Position numbers and translations under genes: made by a program. From Rhizobium redzepovicii (GTDB lineage: Bacteria > Pseudomonadota > Alphaproteobacteria > Rhizobiales > Rhizobiaceae), in assembly GCF_019793435.1 (NCBI RefSeq), contig NZ_JAILYH010000022.1, forward strand, positions 1 to 64,000: a stretch of 64,000 nucleotides of DNA, read 5' to 3'. The stretch's first letter is position 1; the number at the start of each line of letters is the position of its first letter. Below the pieces are notes generated by a model. That model was given only the letters and a program-made list of their open reading frames with translations. It searched no databases and had not been told where the DNA came from. Shown one piece after another: positions 3,889 to 51,568 of the stretch.

Positions 3889-5094
3889 ATGGACAACAGA
3901 CTTCCGGTCACGGTGCTCTCCGGCTTTCTCGGCGCCGGCAAGACGACGCTGCTGAACTACGTGCTTGCCAATCGCGACGGCATGCGCGTCGCCGTCATCG
4001 TCAACGACATGAGCGAGGTGAATATCGACGCCGCCCTGGTGCGCGACGGCGGCGCCAATCTGTCTCGCACCGAGGAGCAGCTGGTCGAGATGACCAATGG
4101 CTGTATCTGCTGCACCCTGCGCGACGACCTCTTGAAAGAGGTGCGCGATCTGGCGACCCAAGGCCGCTTCGACTACCTGCTGATCGAATCCACCGGCATC
4201 GCCGAGCCCCTGCCCGTCGCCACCACCTTCGAATTCCGCGACGAGAACGGAGAAAGCCTTTCCGACGTCGCAAGGCTGGATACGATGGTGACCGTCGTCG
4301 ATGCCGCCAACCTGCTCGCCGATTATGCCTCCGCCGATTTCCTCGCCGACCGCGGCGAAACGGCAGGCGATGGCGATACCAGAACCATCGTCGACCTGCT
4401 GGTCGAGCAGATCGAATTCGCCGATGTCGTGGTGCTGAACAAGATCGGCACGGCAAGCGAGACGGAACGGGATGCCGCGCGGAAAATCATCACCGTCCTC
4501 AACCCGGATGCGCAGCTGATCGAGACGGATTTCGGCAAGGTGGTGCTGAAGCAAGTGCTCGGCACCGGCCGCTTCGATATCGACAGGGCCGAGACCCACC
4601 CGCTCTGGTACAAGGAGCTGCACGGCTTCAAGGACCATGTGCCGGAAACCGAGGAATACGGCATCCGCTCCTTCGTCTACCGCGAAAAGCGGCCCTTCCA
4701 TCCGGCAAAATTGCAAGCCTTTCTCGATCTGACATGGCCGGGCGTGGTGCGCGCCAAGGGCTTTTTCTGGCTGGCGACGCGGCCGCATCATGTCGGCGAG
4801 ATCAGCCAGGCGGGCGCCCTCGTGCGCACCGGCAAGATGGGTCTTTGGTGGGCGGCGGTGCCGCGCGAACAATGGCCTGACGAACCGGGCTTCATGAATG
4901 CCATCGGCCCCTATCTCGACCCCGTCTGGGGCGACCGCCGCCAGGAGATCGTCTTCATCGGCGCCGACCCGATGGATGAGGCTTGGATCAGGAGAGAACT
5001 TGACGCCTGCCTCATCGAGACCGCGGTCTTCGCGCCCGATCGCTGGCGCAACCTGCCCGACCCCTTCGCCAGCTGGAGCCGCCAGGCGGCATGA
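3889..5094 (+). CDS. Zur-regulated COG0523 GTPase (putative zinc metallochaperone)
   Basis: A CobW/COG0523 P-loop GTPase of 401 residues. Walker [10 protein letters not shown] is at 12-20 and the family metal motif CxCC (GCICCTL) at 71-77. A CobW C-terminal domain follows (roughly 280-390). Members under Zur control are thought to hand zinc to essential enzymes during starvation. I chose the ATG at 3889 ([12 protein letters not shown]) because GAGG lies five bases upstream. The earlier in-frame ATG at 3877 is only 2 bp past the operator and lacks a ribosome site. It was named cobW in many older annotations, but the Zur-like site and znu neighbours argue against a cobalamin role. Confidence 0.88.
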
Positions 5095-5270
5095 AGGCGA
5101 CGGCAATCAAACCCTATCGCTGCGTCTGCACGGAGTGTGAACCGCTGCGGCCGATCGAGGGGCTGCATCCGTTGACGCATGAGGGGAGTGTGAAGGTTGA
5201 TGCCGGAAGACCGAAGGGGTTGCTTGGTATTATTGCAAAGAGGATGACGGCGGCACGGCGGCAGAATTAG
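5091..5270 (+). CDS. Small Cys-motif protein coupled to the zinc GTPase
   Basis: A 59-residue ORF whose ATG overlaps the GTPase stop (ATGA), so it would be translated by coupling from the Zur-controlled message. It begins [16 protein letters not shown] and so carries C11, C13 and C16 near the N-terminus, a possible metal-binding cluster, followed by a basic C-terminus. I do not recognise the family. It could instead be a fortuitous ORF, since codon choice is less GC3-rich than in the upstream gene and a repeat element begins about 20 bp after its stop. Confidence 0.5.
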
Positions 5271-12064: not shown

Positions 12065-12355
12065 ATGACTTTGGATTATCCCGCTTCTGACGGTACGGTA
12101 TTCGCCATAATACTGTTGTCGGTGATTGTTCTGTTTCTGGTTATTGTCGAAATAAGAGAGCTTCTTTTTTATAAGAGAAATAATTGGGATTTCAATTCCG
12201 ACAGCAACGTCGGATTTAAGATGTATAATGGCGACAGCACCTCTGGAGAAGATCTGACTTCGAATAGAACAAGGGTTTGCTATGGAACTCCGTTCGTGAT
12301 TTTAGGTTTTTCAATACTTTTAGCCTCGATCGCCGCAATCCATTTGTCGATGTAG
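12065..12355 (+). CDS. Small protein with two membrane segments
   Basis: A 96-residue ORF with hydrophobic segments at about 12-34 and 74-95, joined by a polar loop. ATG 12065 follows GAGGAGAGC, a good ribosome site. The DNA is visibly more AT-rich than the flanks, with codons such as TTT, ATA and AGA that neighbouring genes avoid, which suggests acquired DNA. It lies at the left side of the decayed island that ends at tRNA-Lys. Family not recognised. Confidence 0.55.
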   Translation: MTLDYPASDGTVFAIILLSVIVLFLVIVEIRELLFYKRNNWDFNSDSNVGFKMYNGDSTSGEDLTSNRTRVCYGTPFVILGFSILLASIAAIHLSM

Positions 12356-12357
12356 AT

Positions 12358-12486
12358 GTATGCAGCGAACTCGTGCTGACGCGAGAGGACGCCATCAGAT
12401 ATATCGTGCGGGAGTGGATGGAGAAGAACACCTATTTGCCGGTGCACGAGCTGGATGAAGATGGCGATGTGGATAGGTCTGCATGA
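12358..12486 (+). pseudogene. Remnant of a small regulator-like protein
   Basis: The frame reads CSELVLTREDAIRYIVREWMEKN and ends LDEDGDVDRSA. This has the look of the C-terminal part of small rhizobial proteins with a helical DAIRxIVRxWM pattern. No good start or ribosome site is visible and the upstream part of the frame is not convincing, so it is probably a truncated copy. Confidence 0.3.
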
Positions 12487-12550
12487 ATTTCGACCTAGTG
12501 AACTCATAAATTGAGTAGAATCGGTCATGCAAGTCGGCTAGTCGTAGTCC

Positions 12551-13021
12551 ATGCTCGAGTTTGATAAACTACAACTCGGCCAAGGTTGGGTGGCCGAACC
12601 AAATGCGCCAGAGCCCCAGGTTTCAGTTGAGGGCTCCTCCATCAACGTCCGTTTCCGGTCGTATAGACCGGTGCGCGACAAAAAGCCGACGGGTATTCTC
12701 AGGGCGTTGAGCCTGTTTTCGAAGACCAGCCCGAAATTTGATGAGACATGGGGCACTTTGAGATTTGTTGGTTGCAGCCGCTGGCGCTGGGACAGCACCA
12801 ATGATCATGAATGGTATAAGGTAAGCGGCCATGGTCGTTACAGCGGTGTGGCTCCTCGTTGGGGCGAGTTCTATGAGATAATCGGTCTCGACCCTGACCG
12901 CGACGCCGTGTCTTGGGAAAAGATCGGGGCAGACACCGTTAGCTCTCGGCATTTCCTATATTATTTCCGCGATGAAACGCTTGAGTTCATGGCCGAAGAA
13001 TGGTCGTTCATCCCGACCTGA
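12551..13021 (+). CDS. Hypothetical protein, 156 residues
   Basis: A soluble, Trp- and Arg-rich protein without signal peptide or membrane segment. It has the compact pattern of a small beta-rich domain (NVRFRSYRPV, TLRFVGCSRWRWDSTNDHEWYKVSGHGRYSG, SWEKIGADTVSSRHFLYYFRDETLEFMAEEWSF). I do not recognise the family. Size, composition and island setting would fit an immunity protein or other accessory gene, but that is only inference. An IS5 fragment follows within 70 bp. Confidence 0.6.
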   Translation: MLEFDKLQLGQGWVAEPNAPEPQVSVEGSSINVRFRSYRPVRDKKPTGILRALSLFSKTSPKFDETWGTLRFVGCSRWRWDSTNDHEWYKVSGHGRYSGVAPRWGEFYEIIGLDPDRDAVSWEKIGADTVSSRHFLYYFRDETLEFMAEEWSFIPT

Positions 13022-13088
13022 CGGCCTAAATCGGCTCGTTCGGCGCTGGGACTTTCCTGTCGTTGCCCGACCTGATTCAGATTCAGGG

Positions 13089-13313
13089 ATGAGCTGCCAT
13101 GATCTGACCGACTTTGAATGGCGCGTAATTGCGCCTCCCCTACCTAACAAGCCGCGAGGCGTGCCTCGCGTCGATGACCGACGGGTGCTCAACGGCATCT
13201 TTAGGGTTCTACGATCCGGTGTCCCTTGGCGTGATGTCCCCGAAGGAGACCCGATCATGCAGGTAATATTCTGGCACTATCGGTTGCACTGGCTGGATGC
13301 CAGACGCAAATAA
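13089..13313 (+). pseudogene. IS5-family transposase, N-terminal fragment
   Basis: The frame reads LTDFEWRVIAPPLPNKPRGVPRVDDRRVLNGIFRVLRSGVPWRDVPE, the unmistakable start of IS5/IS427-group transposases. After PWRDVPE the sequence departs from the family and stops, so about 45-50 N-terminal residues are authentic and the DDE catalytic core is gone. It is a dead insertion-sequence remnant at the edge of a broken neighbouring gene. Confidence 0.8.
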
Positions 13314-13404
13314 GAACAGGCTTTCGTTCAAAGCCTACGAAGTCGTTCTCGCTGTCCGGCCACGTCTTGCGCCAGCTGTATTTGAGTTTCAGCTGTTCCT
13401 GCAT
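13255..13404 (-). pseudogene. Truncated gene fragment on the opposite strand
   Basis: A 49-residue frame starts MQEQLKLKYSWRKTWPDS and continues ENDFVGFERKPV before running into the IS5 fragment. The first 25 or so residues look like a genuine protein N-terminus. The remainder reads across the end of the IS5 remnant, so this is probably a gene cut by the insertion or a later deletion. Confidence 0.3.
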
Positions 13405-13491
13405 GCGGCTTGATCTCGGCATGTCTAACCGTATCGCTGGACGATTCTAGGTATCAGGGGTAGGACTCCGAGGGAAACCTTCAAGGGGGCG

Positions 13492-14568
13492 GTGGAGACA
13501 GTGCGGAAACTTCAACTGGACAGTCTGCGCGCCATTGCTGTCTTCGCGGTGATCATCACGCATACATGGCTTGCTGGAAGCACTTATGGCCATCTGGCTG
13601 TGCGCTTCTTCTTCGTGTTGAGTGGTTTCCTCATAACCAGGCACTTGCTACGCTCATTTTCCGATGGTCGCCAAACACCCGGCTCTGCATTGCGGGCGTT
13701 CTACGTCAGACGCAGCTTCCGCATCATGCCGGCATATTACGCGCTCCTGTTGATCATGTTCTTCCTTGAGGCGGACGGGTGGCGCGATCAATGGTACTGG
13801 CATGCGTTCTATGGGACCAATGTGCTCTTTACAAAGACTGATAGCTGGAGCCCATGGTTCTTCTCTCACTTGTGGTCACTCAGTGTCGAACAACAATTTT
13901 ACTTGGCCTGGCCGCTTGTCGTGATGCTGCTGGGCCGCAAGTTCCTGGCGCCAGCCTGCTTCCTCGGGATCGCTATCGCTGTCGGTGTCAGGATAGTCAT
14001 CAGCCTGAAGATGCCCGGAACCACTGTGATCTATTGGACCATGCCGACAAGCTCCTGGGACGCTCTTGCCGTAGGTGGCCTTTTAGCTCTCGCTCCTGCA
14101 GTCAAAGAGCTGTCTATCTTCAAATGGCGCGCCATGATCCCTGTCTACGCAGGTGTTATCTTGCTCTATTGGCTGCTAGAATACCCGTCTTCCCCGTTTG
14201 CTGCAGCCCTGTGGTATGAACTCATCGAAGTTTTGCCGCTTCTAATCTTCGCTCATCTGGTGTTTCTGGGATACCACGATGCCTTGCCGCGCTTCTTGAA
14301 CTGGCGCATTCTCACGCAGCTCGGGCTCATCAGCTACGGCATCTACCTTTACCATGAACTGGCCATCGACCTTTTTCAGCGTGTCGCAGGCCCTCAATAC
14401 TATCCAAGTCTGATCCAGTTCGCCGGGGCGTCGGTTATATCAGTGGTGCTCGCGGCTATATCCTGGGTCTTGCTTGAACGGCCTGCTCAGCAAGTAGGCC
14501 GTCAATTGAGCAGCCGCAGCCGACCCGAAACTATTCGTTCCAGTGACTTGCGTTTCAGGCGCAAGTAA
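13492..14568 (+). CDS. Acyltransferase 3 family membrane protein
   Basis: A 358-residue integral membrane acyltransferase (OafA/YrhL class) that transfers acetyl or other acyl groups to extracytoplasmic sugars. It opens LQLDSLRAIAVFAVIITHTW, with the catalytic-type His of ITHTW, and continues RFFFVLSGFLITRHLLRSF. About ten hydrophobic helices follow and the C-terminus is Arg-rich. The start is a GTG: either 13492 or, three codons on, 13501. It probably decorates a surface polysaccharide. It lies in the island between IS and phage-like debris. Confidence 0.85.
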   Translation: METVRKLQLDSLRAIAVFAVIITHTWLAGSTYGHLAVRFFFVLSGFLITRHLLRSFSDGRQTPGSALRAFYVRRSFRIMPAYYALLLIMFFLEADGWRDQWYWHAFYGTNVLFTKTDSWSPWFFSHLWSLSVEQQFYLAWPLVVMLLGRKFLAPACFLGIAIAVGVRIVISLKMPGTTVIYWTMPTSSWDALAVGGLLALAPAVKELSIFKWRAMIPVYAGVILLYWLLEYPSSPFAAALWYELIEVLPLLIFAHLVFLGYHDALPRFLNWRILTQLGLISYGIYLYHELAIDLFQRVAGPQYYPSLIQFAGASVISVVLAAISWVLLERPAQQVGRQLSSRSRPETIRSSDLRFRRK

Positions 14569-14602
14569 CTCTTCTGCCCGCTGCGGTGATAGGACAGAAG
14601 AG

Positions 14603-14868
14603 ATGAGGCTGACCAACCCAAAGATCATCATCCGATTGCAAGAGCTGCGCCGCGTTATAGATCGCCCGCAGGCGCGCGGCCTTGCCAGTGCGGACAGAAG
14701 CCGGAAAATCTCGAAGCATCCTATGGGCCGATCTCAGTCATCACCTGCCCTAAGTGCAAGGAGAAGATGACGGTCAAGACGAAACCGTTCTTCCGGAGCG
14801 CTCTAACGGAGCTAGATCACGAAGCCGTGCGAGTTATTGGGGCGTGGAACGAGAGGATTGGTGGATGA
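14603..14868 (+). pseudogene. Frameshifted small zinc-ribbon protein
   Basis: One frame starts at ATG 14603 (MRLTNPKIIIRLQELRRVID). A second, offset frame from about 14683 reads CQCGQKPENLEASYG, then VITCPKCKEKM and ends WNERIGG with TGA at 14866-14868. Joined, they make a roughly 88-residue protein with a CxC ... CPKC zinc-ribbon-like pattern, so an indel between about 14660 and 14683 is likely. Its stop overlaps the next ATG (ATGA), typical of packed phage genes. Confidence 0.45.
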
Positions 14869-15149
14869 CCGTCCGTCGCCAGCCCACTAACCCGGCCGGC
14901 AGCTGGCCGCTGCGCATGACTGCGGACATGGCGGCTGGCGATTGCGGAGAAAAGCACGTCGAGGATTTCCTCGAGCGCGTCGGTACCGCATATCCACAGC
15001 CGCGCGTAGTTGACACCACCCGGCGGAAGTTTTGGTATCGTGACGACTTGGACCGCGCGATGAACATCGGCGCCGTCGAAACCGCCTCAAGCATTGGAGC
15101 GAAATTCCGTAACAAGATCAGGGAAAAGCGGAACGATCGAACTGCCTAA
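14865..15149 (+). CDS. Small phage-type protein
   Basis: A 94-residue basic protein, MTVRRQPTNPAGSWPLRM..., with ERVGTAYPQPRVVDTTRRKFWYRDDLDRAMN. The segment RRKFWYRDDLDRAM resembles the start-of-wing and recognition region of small excisionase or AlpA-like DNA-binding proteins, but that is a weak impression. The ATG overlaps the upstream stop, and the gene runs into the integrase remnant, the usual place for an excisionase or its partner. Confidence 0.5.
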   Translation: MTVRRQPTNPAGSWPLRMTADMAAGDCGEKHVEDFLERVGTAYPQPRVVDTTRRKFWYRDDLDRAMNIGAVETASSIGAKFRNKIREKRNDRTA

Positions 15150-15425
15150 GCACGTCCACCGCGTCATAAAGCGCCGGAAGAGCGGCGCCGAGACGGTCTA
15201 CACCTTCTACACCAAGTTCCGAAACACCGCCGCAGCCTGGCCGTCCCTGTCCCTGTCGCAGCACTTGGAACGTGACTTCCAGAGCCGGGTCGCCATTTGC
15301 GAAGCGCTGTAGCGCGACGACAAAGGTTTTCTGCTGGATGGCAAGAGGCTCCCCGACCACTCGGAAAAGGGTTTCTGGCCGGCCGCCGAGAAGGCTTTCG
15401 AAGCTCTTGAACCCGTCGGCGGTCT
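15094..15425 (+). pseudogene. Tyrosine integrase remnant, N-terminal part
   Basis: The frame reads IELPKHVHRVIKRRKSGAETVYTFYTK, then TAAAWPSLSLS and RVAICEAL, the arm-binding N-terminus of rhizobial phage-type integrases. An in-frame TAG at 15310-15312 interrupts it, and the same frame goes on with RDDKGFLLDGKRLPDHSEKG and FWPAAEKAFEAL before homology is lost near 15425. A TTG at 15094 could be the original start. Confidence 0.75.
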
Positions 15426-15463
15426 TGTAATATTTCGTGCGCGCGCCCGCATGTAGCATCACG

Positions 15464-15652
15464 CTAGGCGGAGTGGATCGGGATCCAGACCGTCCTTTTC
15501 GTCTTCTGCGCCTTGACGGCTATCGTGGTTCCTCCTGCCTTTGGCTTGACCATGGCGAGAACGTCGCCTTGGCGCTGGCCGGTGAAGAAGGCTGACATGG
15601 CGATAATCTTATCGTTGGCCGGTATGCGATCGATCCATTTCCTGTAAGGACG
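15464..15652 (-). pseudogene. Tyrosine integrase core fragment, inverted
   Basis: On the minus strand 62 codons read WIDRIPANDKIIAMS, AFFTGQRQGDVLAMVKPKAG and VKAQKTKRTVWIPIHSA before a stop. This is the central catalytic segment of tyrosine recombinases, including the first active-site Arg in TGQRQGDVL. It lies between the N- and C-terminal parts of the same type of integrase but in the opposite orientation, so the segment has been flipped. Confidence 0.7.
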
Positions 15653-15928
15653 GAATGGCAGAAGCTAATGGACGAAGAGTCGTTCAAGCGATTCCGAGAG
15701 GAGAGGATCGTCTTCCACGGGCTGCGGAAGAACGCGGTCATCAATCTGCTTGAGGTGGGGTGCACCGAAAACCAGGTCGGATCGATCTGCAACATGTCTG
15801 GGCAGATGGTTCAGCACTACGGGCGGGAGGTCGCTCTGAGGAGTTTGGCGAAAGACGCCATGAAGCCCATGGAGGCACGATGGAGCGAGATCGAGCCGGC
15901 TGCTTTCAGGAACAGGATCGGAACGTGA
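15641..15928 (+). pseudogene. Tyrosine integrase remnant, C-terminal part
   Basis: The frame carries the rest of the catalytic domain: TEWQKLMDEESFKRFREERI, VFHGLRKNAVINLLEVGC (His-x-x-Arg box) and SGQMVQHYGREV with the Tyr nucleophile. It ends with TGA at 15926-15928. Only the C-terminal third of an integrase is present and it could not work alone. It ends 88 bp before the 3' end of tRNA-Lys, the expected site for a tRNA-targeting integrase. Confidence 0.8.
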
Positions 15929-16015
15929 ATTGGAAACCGCTTCCAAAATGTTGGAAACCGGTAGTCCGGAATTGCCAGCACAATCACATAAAACCCAATA
16001 ATATCAAGAGGTTTT

Positions 16016-16091
<76 letters not shown>

Positions 16092-49613: not shown

Positions 49614-50675
49614 TCAGCAGGAGGCTCTCGCGGACTGCAGCTGCAGCAGATATTCGACCGGGTTGAACGGATCGGGCCCCGAACGCCGGCGCAGGCGCGG
49701 TGGCCCGGCCATCGGGGCGTAGTGATCGAAAGCGGTTTCCATCGTCCCTGCCCCGCTCGTCAGGCCCGGCAATTGCTGCTGGACGCTTTGAACCATCTGA
49801 GACGCGAGAATGCCTTCGAGCCGCGCCACGCCATCGGCGATCACGGAATGCGACGTCGCCGCAGCGGACTTCGCCAGCAGAGTCAGCACGCTGCTCAAGC
49901 TCTCGACAGGCGCTTCCAGGTGAAAGCGGTCGAAAGGCTCGCAGACGGCCGTTTGCGCAGCCGAGAGCGCCGTTGCCAGCACCCAGGGCGTCAATTGCCG
50001 GAAATCGGCGGCAGTGCTTGCGGGCGAACTGTGCCGGGCCGCCGTCATCGCCACATGGCAATCGATGACCTGCCAGCCGAAAATGCCCTGCTTCAGCGTC
50101 TCGAACACGGTTTCCTCGACCGCCCGGTAAAAGGCGACGGGCATCTGGCCGACCTCCACCTCGAGCGCGAAGCTGTTGCCTGCGCCGGCAGGACGCGGCT
50201 CGACGCGCAGGCCGATGGTGGCGAGAAACGGATTTGGCTCCTTGAAGAGTATCTGCAGGCCGGCCCCGCTGCCGACGGGTCTTTCGACCAGGATGACCGT
50301 GCTTTCCTCGAAACCCGCCTCGAGGCCGAAATCCGTCAGCAGCGTCGATTGGATCACTTCCTTCTGCACCTCGCCATAAAGCGACACGAAGACTTCATTC
50401 GTCTCCTCGGCCCTGCGCAAATTGATCAGCGGATCCTGCTCGGCCATCTGGTTCAGCGCCAGCCAAATCGCCGCGCTGTCCGAGGGCCGCCGGGCAAGCA
50501 CGCGCGTTTCGAGCGTCGGCGGGGCAAAGTAAGCCCGCCCGCCCGAGGCCGGATTGCGGCCCACCGCATCACCGATCTGGGCACCGGCAAGGCCGCTGAC
50601 GCGGGCGATCTGGCCGGCGCAGAAGCTCGCGGCGCCATGGCTGCGGCCGGCCTCGAACACATGGATTGCAGTCAC
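49614..50675 (-). CDS. Ribosomal-protection GTPase, C-terminal part (frameshifted)
   Basis: 353 residues from a GTG at 50675. It begins VTAIHVFEAG, the second half of an EF-G-type domain II, and continues through domains III-V (ETRVLARRPSD, SLYGEVQKEVIQSTL, VEVGQMPVAFYRAVEETVFETLKQG, CHVAMTA). No GTP-binding motifs occur here; they lie in the preceding ORF. Together the two halves make about 650 residues, the normal length of TetM/OtrA-like proteins that release tetracycline from ribosomes. The split falls inside domain II, so this is a frameshift product rather than a free-standing protein. Confidence 0.8.
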   Translation of the reverse strand: MTAIHVFEAGRSHGAASFCAGQIARVSGLAGAQIGDAVGRNPASGGRAYFAPPTLETRVLARRPSDSAAIWLALNQMAEQDPLINLRRAEETNEVFVSLYGEVQKEVIQSTLLTDFGLEAGFEESTVILVERPVGSGAGLQILFKEPNPFLATIGLRVEPRPAGAGNSFALEVEVGQMPVAFYRAVEETVFETLKQGIFGWQVIDCHVAMTAARHSSPASTAADFRQLTPWVLATALSAAQTAVCEPFDRFHLEAPVESLSSVLTLLAKSAAATSHSVIADGVARLEGILASQMVQSVQQQLPGLTSGAGTMETAFDHYAPMAGPPRLRRRSGPDPFNPVEYLLQLQSARASC

Positions 50676-51568
50676 CCGTTCCTCTCCCCCGGCAGATCCA
50701 GATATTGCCGCAGCCGCAGGGTCCCCGAAGTCAGGTAGAGATAGGCGAGCTTTTCGCCGCCCCAGCCGCGCTCGATCTTGAAGATCTTGCCAGCGACCGG
50801 CCCGTCCGGATCAAGCCGCCGCTCGGGCAACAGCGTCGCGATGGCCGAGCTTAGCGCCGGCACGCCGGCGCCGGTCATGGCCGCTCCTGCGAAAACGGGA
50901 TGCACCAAGCCCATTGCCACCTGATCGGCCAGACTGCGCCCGAGCCTTTCCGTGGTCAGTCGTTCTGGGACGAGCACATAGTCGTCGAGCAGCGCCTGGT
51001 CGTTCTCACCGAGCGCCTCGCAGAGCGCTGAAAAAAGCGGCTCGTCTCCCGGCGCCAGAGCCTCCACCCGGGCAAGCTTGCTGCCGGCATCGATGACGGA
51101 GGACATGGCGATGGGACGCACCGCCAGTTGCGCGGCAAGGGCCTCCGTCACATCCCCGTACCGCGCGCCGAGACGATCGACCTTGTTGATGAAGAAGACG
51201 AAGGGAACGCCGAGCCGCCGCAGCGCCCGCACCAGCACACGCGTCTGCGCCTGTACGCCTTCGACCGCCGAAACGACGACGACCGCCGCATCCAGCAATC
51301 CAAGCACCCGCTCGACCTCGGCGATGAAATCGGGGTGGCCGGGCGTGTCGATCAGATTGACGACCCTGTCGCCGATCGCAAACGACACCACCGCGGCCCT
51401 GATCGTGATGCCGCGCTGTCGCTCGAGTTCGAGGGTATCAGTCTGTGTATTACCGGTATCGACGCTGCCAAGCTTGTCGATGACGCCGGCGTCAAAAAGC
51501 AGTCTTTCGGTAAGACTAGTCTTGCCTGCATCCACATGGGCGAGGATGCCCAGATTCAAAGTGCGCAT
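50672..51568 (-). CDS. Ribosomal-protection GTPase, N-terminal part (frameshifted)
   Basis: 298 residues with the G domain of a TetM/OtrA-like elongation-factor paralogue: G1 AHVDAGKTSLTERLL, switch RGITIRAAVVSF, G3 DTPGHPDF and G4 FINKVDR. It enters domain II (LTSGTLRLRQYLDLPGERNG) and stops at TGA, exactly where the next frame resumes as VTAIHVFEAG. The two ORFs overlap by 4 bp. Loss of a few bases at the junction would explain the split; a sequencing error or programmed shift cannot be excluded. Confidence 0.82.
   Translation of the reverse strand: MRTLNLGILAHVDAGKTSLTERLLFDAGVIDKLGSVDTGNTQTDTLELERQRGITIRAAVVSFAIGDRVVNLIDTPGHPDFIAEVERVLGLLDAAVVVVSAVEGVQAQTRVLVRALRRLGVPFVFFINKVDRLGARYGDVTEALAAQLAVRPIAMSSVIDAGSKLARVEALAPGDEPLFSALCEALGENDQALLDDYVLVPERLTTERLGRSLADQVAMGLVHPVFAGAAMTGAGVPALSSAIATLLPERRLDPDGPVAGKIFKIERGWGGEKLAYLYLTSGTLRLRQYLDLPGERNG

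Follow-up and report, generated by a model that had tools for sequence, protein, structure and literature searches.

A decayed prophage integrase with a scrambled middle beside tRNA-Lys(CTT) in Rhizobium redzepovicii, probably a scar of end joining after several breaks

Described prophages, repair scars and invertible genes

For the phiLM21-like prophages of Sinorhizobium (S. meliloti), the available part of the report on them gives tRNA-Lys(CUU) as the commonest target, with about half of cases (PMC12429752). The integrase considered here, from a 64-kb stretch of Rhizobium redzepovicii DNA (the window), resembles the phiLM21-like one in being of the rhizobial-prophage tyrosine type with a presumed tRNA-Lys(CUU) target, and the gene is intact beside that tRNA in two viral contigs (L069 and L071); the window copy, however, is a broken and scrambled relic. 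We infer that the intact relatives are the same prophages as the phiLM21-like ones.

Scars of DNA end joining (NHEJ) have been sequenced in rhizobia. In the accessible text on R. etli, 32 of 34 sequenced events are deletions of 1-6 bp and the other two are of 19 and 136 bp, microhomology is reported in none of eleven small-plasmid events, and deletions of 214-343 bp are cited for S. meliloti (PMC10932983). As far as that text goes, such scars share with the window near-blunt joints without long homology and a larger deletion, but they are deletions (one with a 1-bp insertion), whereas in the window three kept fragments are flipped and reordered (PMC10932983). It counts against an end-joining reading of the window that, in the same accessible text, homologous recombination makes up 74% of the R. 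etli repairs and NHEJ 23%, and that the word "inversion" occurs 0 times in the main text (PMC10932983).

Intragenic invertons share with the window a segment within a gene that lies on the opposite strand; the window's segment, however, is without end repeats and is found in one orientation only. Invertons are flanked by inverted repeats and occur in two orientations. In eukaryotes, chromothripsis rejoins the products of many breaks in changed order and orientation, with part of the DNA lost. The window likewise has fragments of one small region reordered and reoriented with part lost, but it differs in its scale of 240 bp, in being a bacterial relic, and in being a single case accompanied by one simpler flip (L095, below). 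A limited literature search, without preprints and most subscription journals, had no title on small scrambled bacterial pseudogenes among the matches listed.

Layout of the relic and its intact relatives

The relic of a tyrosine integrase lies at 15064-15928 of the window, close to a tRNA-Lys(CTT) gene (16016-16091, minus strand; ARAGORN), in a 7.0-Mb draft genome of 134 contigs. The tRNA is the presumed integration target, judging by its position and by the gene of intact relatives, which adjoins the same tRNA. Upstream, the plus-strand stretch 14892-15063 is colinear with prophage relatives and falls within an ORF at 14754-15149 that matched no Pfam or PHROG model and is given no family name; by blastn, about 14892-15404 is 71-76% identical to 13 relatives. 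The 5' part of the integrase (N, 15064-15408, plus strand) covers residues 1-114 of the L070 frame at 68% by tblastn, has a G463 blastn match extending to 15407, and in translation contains an in-frame TAG at 15310-15312. The 3' part (D, 15648-15928, plus strand) covers residues 326-418 with the HGLRKNA and HYGREVA motifs, at 88% by tblastn and 78-85% by blastn against 13 relatives.

Between N and D, everything reads on the minus strand, in three pieces that were each placed ungapped on five relatives (piece ends were preset from an earlier alignment and positions found freely). The first, C3 (15409-15466), encodes SVMLHAGARTKYYKTADGF (about residues 307-325) and agrees with the relatives at 42-45 of 58 positions, at relative coordinates 4922-4979. 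The second, C1 (15467-15611), is the catalytic core with TGQRQGDVL (about residues 247-294); it agrees at 112-118 of 142 positions, at 4745-4886, and is 86% identical to G463 by blastn. The third, C2 (15612-15647), encodes YRKWIDRIPAND (about residues 295-306), is not only flipped but moved to the other side of C1, and agrees at 26-28 of 36 positions, at 4886-4921, with 84% over 31 nt against G463 by blastn. The small size of C2 does not make its placement a chance one: the best of three relatives agreed at 28 of 36 positions, 300 random 36-mers of the window reached 24 at most, and over 14 relatives agreement was 20-28 of 36, with one position shared by 12 of them and a shift of 3 nt in the other two.

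The plus-strand order in the window is N, C3', C1', C2', D, against C1-C2-C3 and then D in the relatives, and along the minus strand the block runs C2 (15647-15612), C1 (15611-15467), C3 (15466-15409). The end of the N part falls at relative coordinates 4281-4345 on the five relatives; in L016, where N stops at 4345, C1, C2 and C3 take the coordinates given above and D begins at 4981. Hence C1, C2, C3 and D adjoin within 1-2 positions, each piece is present once and none is duplicated, with almost nothing lost or doubled at the C1/C2, C2/C3 and C3/D breakpoints. The missing stretch (M) runs from relative position 4346 to about 4742, some 395 bp or about 130 residues (~115-246). A colinear copy with frame changes from the same genus, G463, agrees (N to 2754, C1 3149-3295, C2 3295-3325, C3 3332-3381, D from 3385; limits are trimmed blastn ends). 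That copy, L152 2445-3661, stands beside tRNA-Lys and reflects a different route of decay at the same site.

When the window was compared by blastn with 17 chosen loci, 13 gave one pattern, namely N colinear at 71-76%, C1 on the minus strand at 72-83% and D colinear at 78-85%; the remaining four comprise L081, which shares the structure of the window, and the truncated copies L018, L022 and L095. An earlier note on this DNA had described the N- and C-terminal integrase parts on the plus strand with the TGQRQGDVL core on the minus strand between them, and translation and tblastn bear this out. It had also taken the core to be simply flipped in place by an inversion of ~190 bp, whereas the minus-strand block measures 239 bp (15409-15647), its three pieces are reordered, and ~395 bp are absent between the N part and the core. 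A plain single inversion is ruled out by the changed order of the pieces.

With the 86-residue D part as query, 36 loci were found in genome_contigs and 47 in viral_contigs. Of the 13 loci inspected, 12 keep the frame open over 407-420 codons, counted from stop to stop, the exception being L013, which is split by a frame change; L016 and L075 hold the same protein. ARAGORN found tRNA-Lys(CTT) in 16 of 22 loci, and the intact gene adjoins it in L014-L016 as well as in the two viral contigs named above. L070 matches the PHROG 1 integrase (1.1e-21), and against PF00589 (cut-off 27.1 bits) it scores 22.1 bits (1.4e-4), below the cut-off, as does L016 at 26.4, while L049 at 27.7 is just above it. 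The window pieces are 60-88% identical to L070, and on their own they matched no Pfam or PHROG model. The catalytic motifs are kept but on different strands, TGQRQGD in C1 and HGLRKNA and HYGREVA in D; we take the catalytic residues to be the Arg of TGQRQGD, the HxxR and the Tyr. By homology and by these motifs, the relic is, at the level of sequence, derived from a phage tyrosine integrase. Among plasmid and phage records, the D part had just three plasmid and two phage matches, all below 60% identity, and the best 20 of 48 records from a plasmid DNA search align solely to the upstream part (window about 14874-15133). Within the window, the tRNA-Lys end recurs over no more than 14 nt, which leaves the left boundary of the old prophage unplaced.

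The scrambled order, the absence of residues ~115-246 and the TAG at 15310-15312 leave no single ORF with all domains, and the relic presumably has no function now. That it is a non-functional relic carrying a real rearrangement is, in our judgement, practically certain. The draft state of the genome, in 134 contigs, could suggest that the scramble was produced by an assembly error. However, the whole structure, including the block/D joint recovered by exact pattern, is carried by L081 (IMG/VR contig 3300025273_000111), with nine differences over 3998 bp (window 12065-16062), one of which is a base absent from D. Since another contig has the structure with so few differences, misassembly is unlikely, and we give it hardly any credence. 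Going by the IMG/VR scheme, we assume that the 3300025273 numbering denotes a metagenome. The match to L081 breaks off within the tRNA, close to its anticodon, where L081 continues with other sequence. Beyond this break, at L081 3998-4450, window 12377-12464 (88 bp) has a counterpart of 83% identity, perhaps the sign of another prophage at this site that carries a related small gene.

The difference in strand might also mean that the core fragment was inserted from a second, unrelated integrase. Alignment to intact relatives, which the earlier note had proposed as a check, instead places the core in the same integrase clade, filling the gap before D: N, C1 and D all match the same 13 relatives (71-76%, 72-83% and 78-85%, respectively), and the block supplies the part missing immediately before D. 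Nor did the genome hold a further integrase copy at E 1e-5 or better (four of eight candidates scored), and a foreign core is accordingly next to inconceivable to us.

Joints, breakpoints and the probable mode of repair

A decayed prophage integrase with a scrambled middle is most simply seen as the scar of end joining after several breaks, which we consider probable. Several double-strand breaks in a short stretch would have freed small fragments, of which M (~395 bp) would have been lost, while Ku/LigD-type end joining would have put C1, C2 and C3 back together misordered and inverted, all within a single episode of repair. At the four joints, comparison by eye with G463, L016 and L049 leaves room for 0 to about 3 nt of microhomology, in keeping with the little or none expected of an NHEJ scar; joints could be placed no better than to 1-3 nt, and longer microhomology could be hidden by later substitutions. 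What limits this precision is the divergence of the relatives, at about 71-85% identity, together with continued mutation of the relic. Candidates are encoded in the genome itself: Ku is matched four times above cut-off, each at 6.4e-39 or better, and LigD_N once, at 4.4e-46. The Ku matches form two neighbouring pairs, at G000:C53:6737-8138 and G000:C2:14843-16470. The suggestion in the earlier note of an error-prone repair product thus agrees with the near-blunt joints, the loss of one stretch, the single presence of the rest, and the Ku and LigD matches.

The short microhomology would also be compatible with replication template switching, in which a stalled fork's serial, microhomology-guided strand jumps would have written the flipped pieces. 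Several jumps within 240 bp fit models of this process. Template-switch patterns, loop inversions included, are known from bacterial rRNA, according to the available part of the study (PMC8794818). One would, however, expect such switching to leave duplications or gaps, whereas C1, C2, C3 and D follow one another to within 1-2 positions with none doubled, and we regard it as unlikely.

A further possibility is gradual decay, in which small inversions, one deletion and the 36-bp move happened as separate events over time. The gene is otherwise decaying, with the TAG in its 5' part and the one-base deletion in L081, and truncated copies are common at the site. By computation, however, reversals alone need at least three inversions, whose six cut ends would have to fall on only four breakpoints, and some breakpoints must therefore have been reused exactly, with no repeat at the block ends to guide the reuse; the alternative of an inversion plus a transposition meets the same difficulty. 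Stepwise decay of this kind seems quite improbable. The same species yielded neither an intermediate nor a pre-scramble copy, and the number of steps can thus be judged only indirectly. A search of 148 genomes of the genus, in which three candidates per genome were scored among those listed, gave 14 with a match at E 1e-6, and the regions of the other 13, compared with the reference protein, contained no partly scrambled intermediate. Given the near-lossless breakpoints, the need for three inversions with reuse, and the expectation that template switching would duplicate or drop bases, rejoining in one episode is by inference the simplest account. We therefore lean, with some reserve, towards one multi-break end-joining episode rather than stepwise events or template switching.

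As a central block on the opposite strand between two plus-strand parts, the arrangement could also be taken for an intragenic inversion switching the integrase on and off, as the earlier note had more speculatively proposed. Either orientation, however, lacks about 130 residues, has C1 and C2 misordered and keeps the TAG in N, so that flipping the block back would not restore the gene. A single orientation is seen in the window and in L081, and junctions of the opposite orientation had no match in viral_contigs for either junction, with 0-3 free bases allowed, which is a weak test. No inverted match longer than 6 nt lies within 30 nt of both block ends, and 61% of 2000 random 239-bp segments of the window have one of at least 6 nt. 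We reject the switch reading, which has almost no probability left.

Candidate repeats were also considered in their own right. The GGATCG/CGATCC pair that the earlier note placed near the inversion ends is sited at 15475-15480 and 15631-15636, within C1 and C2 and at no breakpoint, and the window contains GGATCG 100 times, with 92.5 expected (sd 10.6); the pair was discarded as a mediator for its chance frequency and its position. Repeat-mediated inversion in general was set aside, no match at the block ends being above random. An inverted repeat of 18 nt and 83% identity (15631-15648 / 15903-15920) has one arm touching the right block end, but the other arm falls within D, and 147 such pairs turned up in the scan; it was deemed due to chance.

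On its own, the locus is merely a repair scar in a dead gene, if from an event more complex than first noted. It nevertheless records, at sequence level and on a second contig too, a multi-fragment local rearrangement in a bacterium with three near-lossless breakpoints, and so offers a small but unusually clean record of how bacterial DNA breaks are mended. If such scars are common in Ku-bearing bacteria, pseudogenes could reveal the natural repertoire of end joining.

Other relics at the site and neighbouring features

Inverted pieces were also looked for in other copies. A survey of 165 loci, blind to flips shorter than about 15 residues, comprised 43 full-length and 35 partial loci, 73 that were dropped because their best match was <60% identical, and 14 for which no match reached 29 bits. 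Grouping by hand those partial loci that share a contig or region reduced the 35 to 15 lineages, of which L019/L101/L129, cut by a contig end, was set aside; the copies L044/L157 and L150/L158, both from a single genome, were counted as two. Inverted pieces were found in two of the 14 truncated lineages (the window with L081, and L095) and in none of the 43 full-length loci (near-duplicates included). In the other 12 truncated lineages the survey found no inverted piece, which counts against the end-joining reading. Two of the dropped relics, L127 and L128, have simple internal deletions.

In L095, residues 344-368 lie on the minus strand directly ahead of residues 372-418 on the plus strand. 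The flip is of about 106 bp (L095 4918-5021; relative coordinates about 5012-5117), the plus-strand part resuming at about 5116-5118 (ends by eye), and its breakpoints differ from those of the window, making it a separate flip. One might suppose that integrase relics at tRNA-Lys are recurrently cut several times and healed by flip-and-delete end joining into chromothripsis-like scars, of which the window and L095 would be independent cases. The simultaneous cuts could then come, for example, from failed excision or a defence nuclease. We consider such recurrence very unlikely.

Upstream of the relic, a short plus-strand ORF at 12972-13313 resembles what we take to be the N-terminal part of an IS5-type transposase, truncated. 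Between it and the relic, at 13492-14568, lies a full-looking acyltransferase gene (PF01757, 1.3e-29), which is possibly left-over cargo. Further along the window, two abutting minus-strand ORFs at 49614-51568 look, by eye, like parts of one translation GTPase (EF-G/ribosomal-protection type) that a frame change seems to have split. At the left edge of the window, an ORF at 7-504 opens with many AAPARAT(M/T) repeats, forming a tandem-repeat tract.
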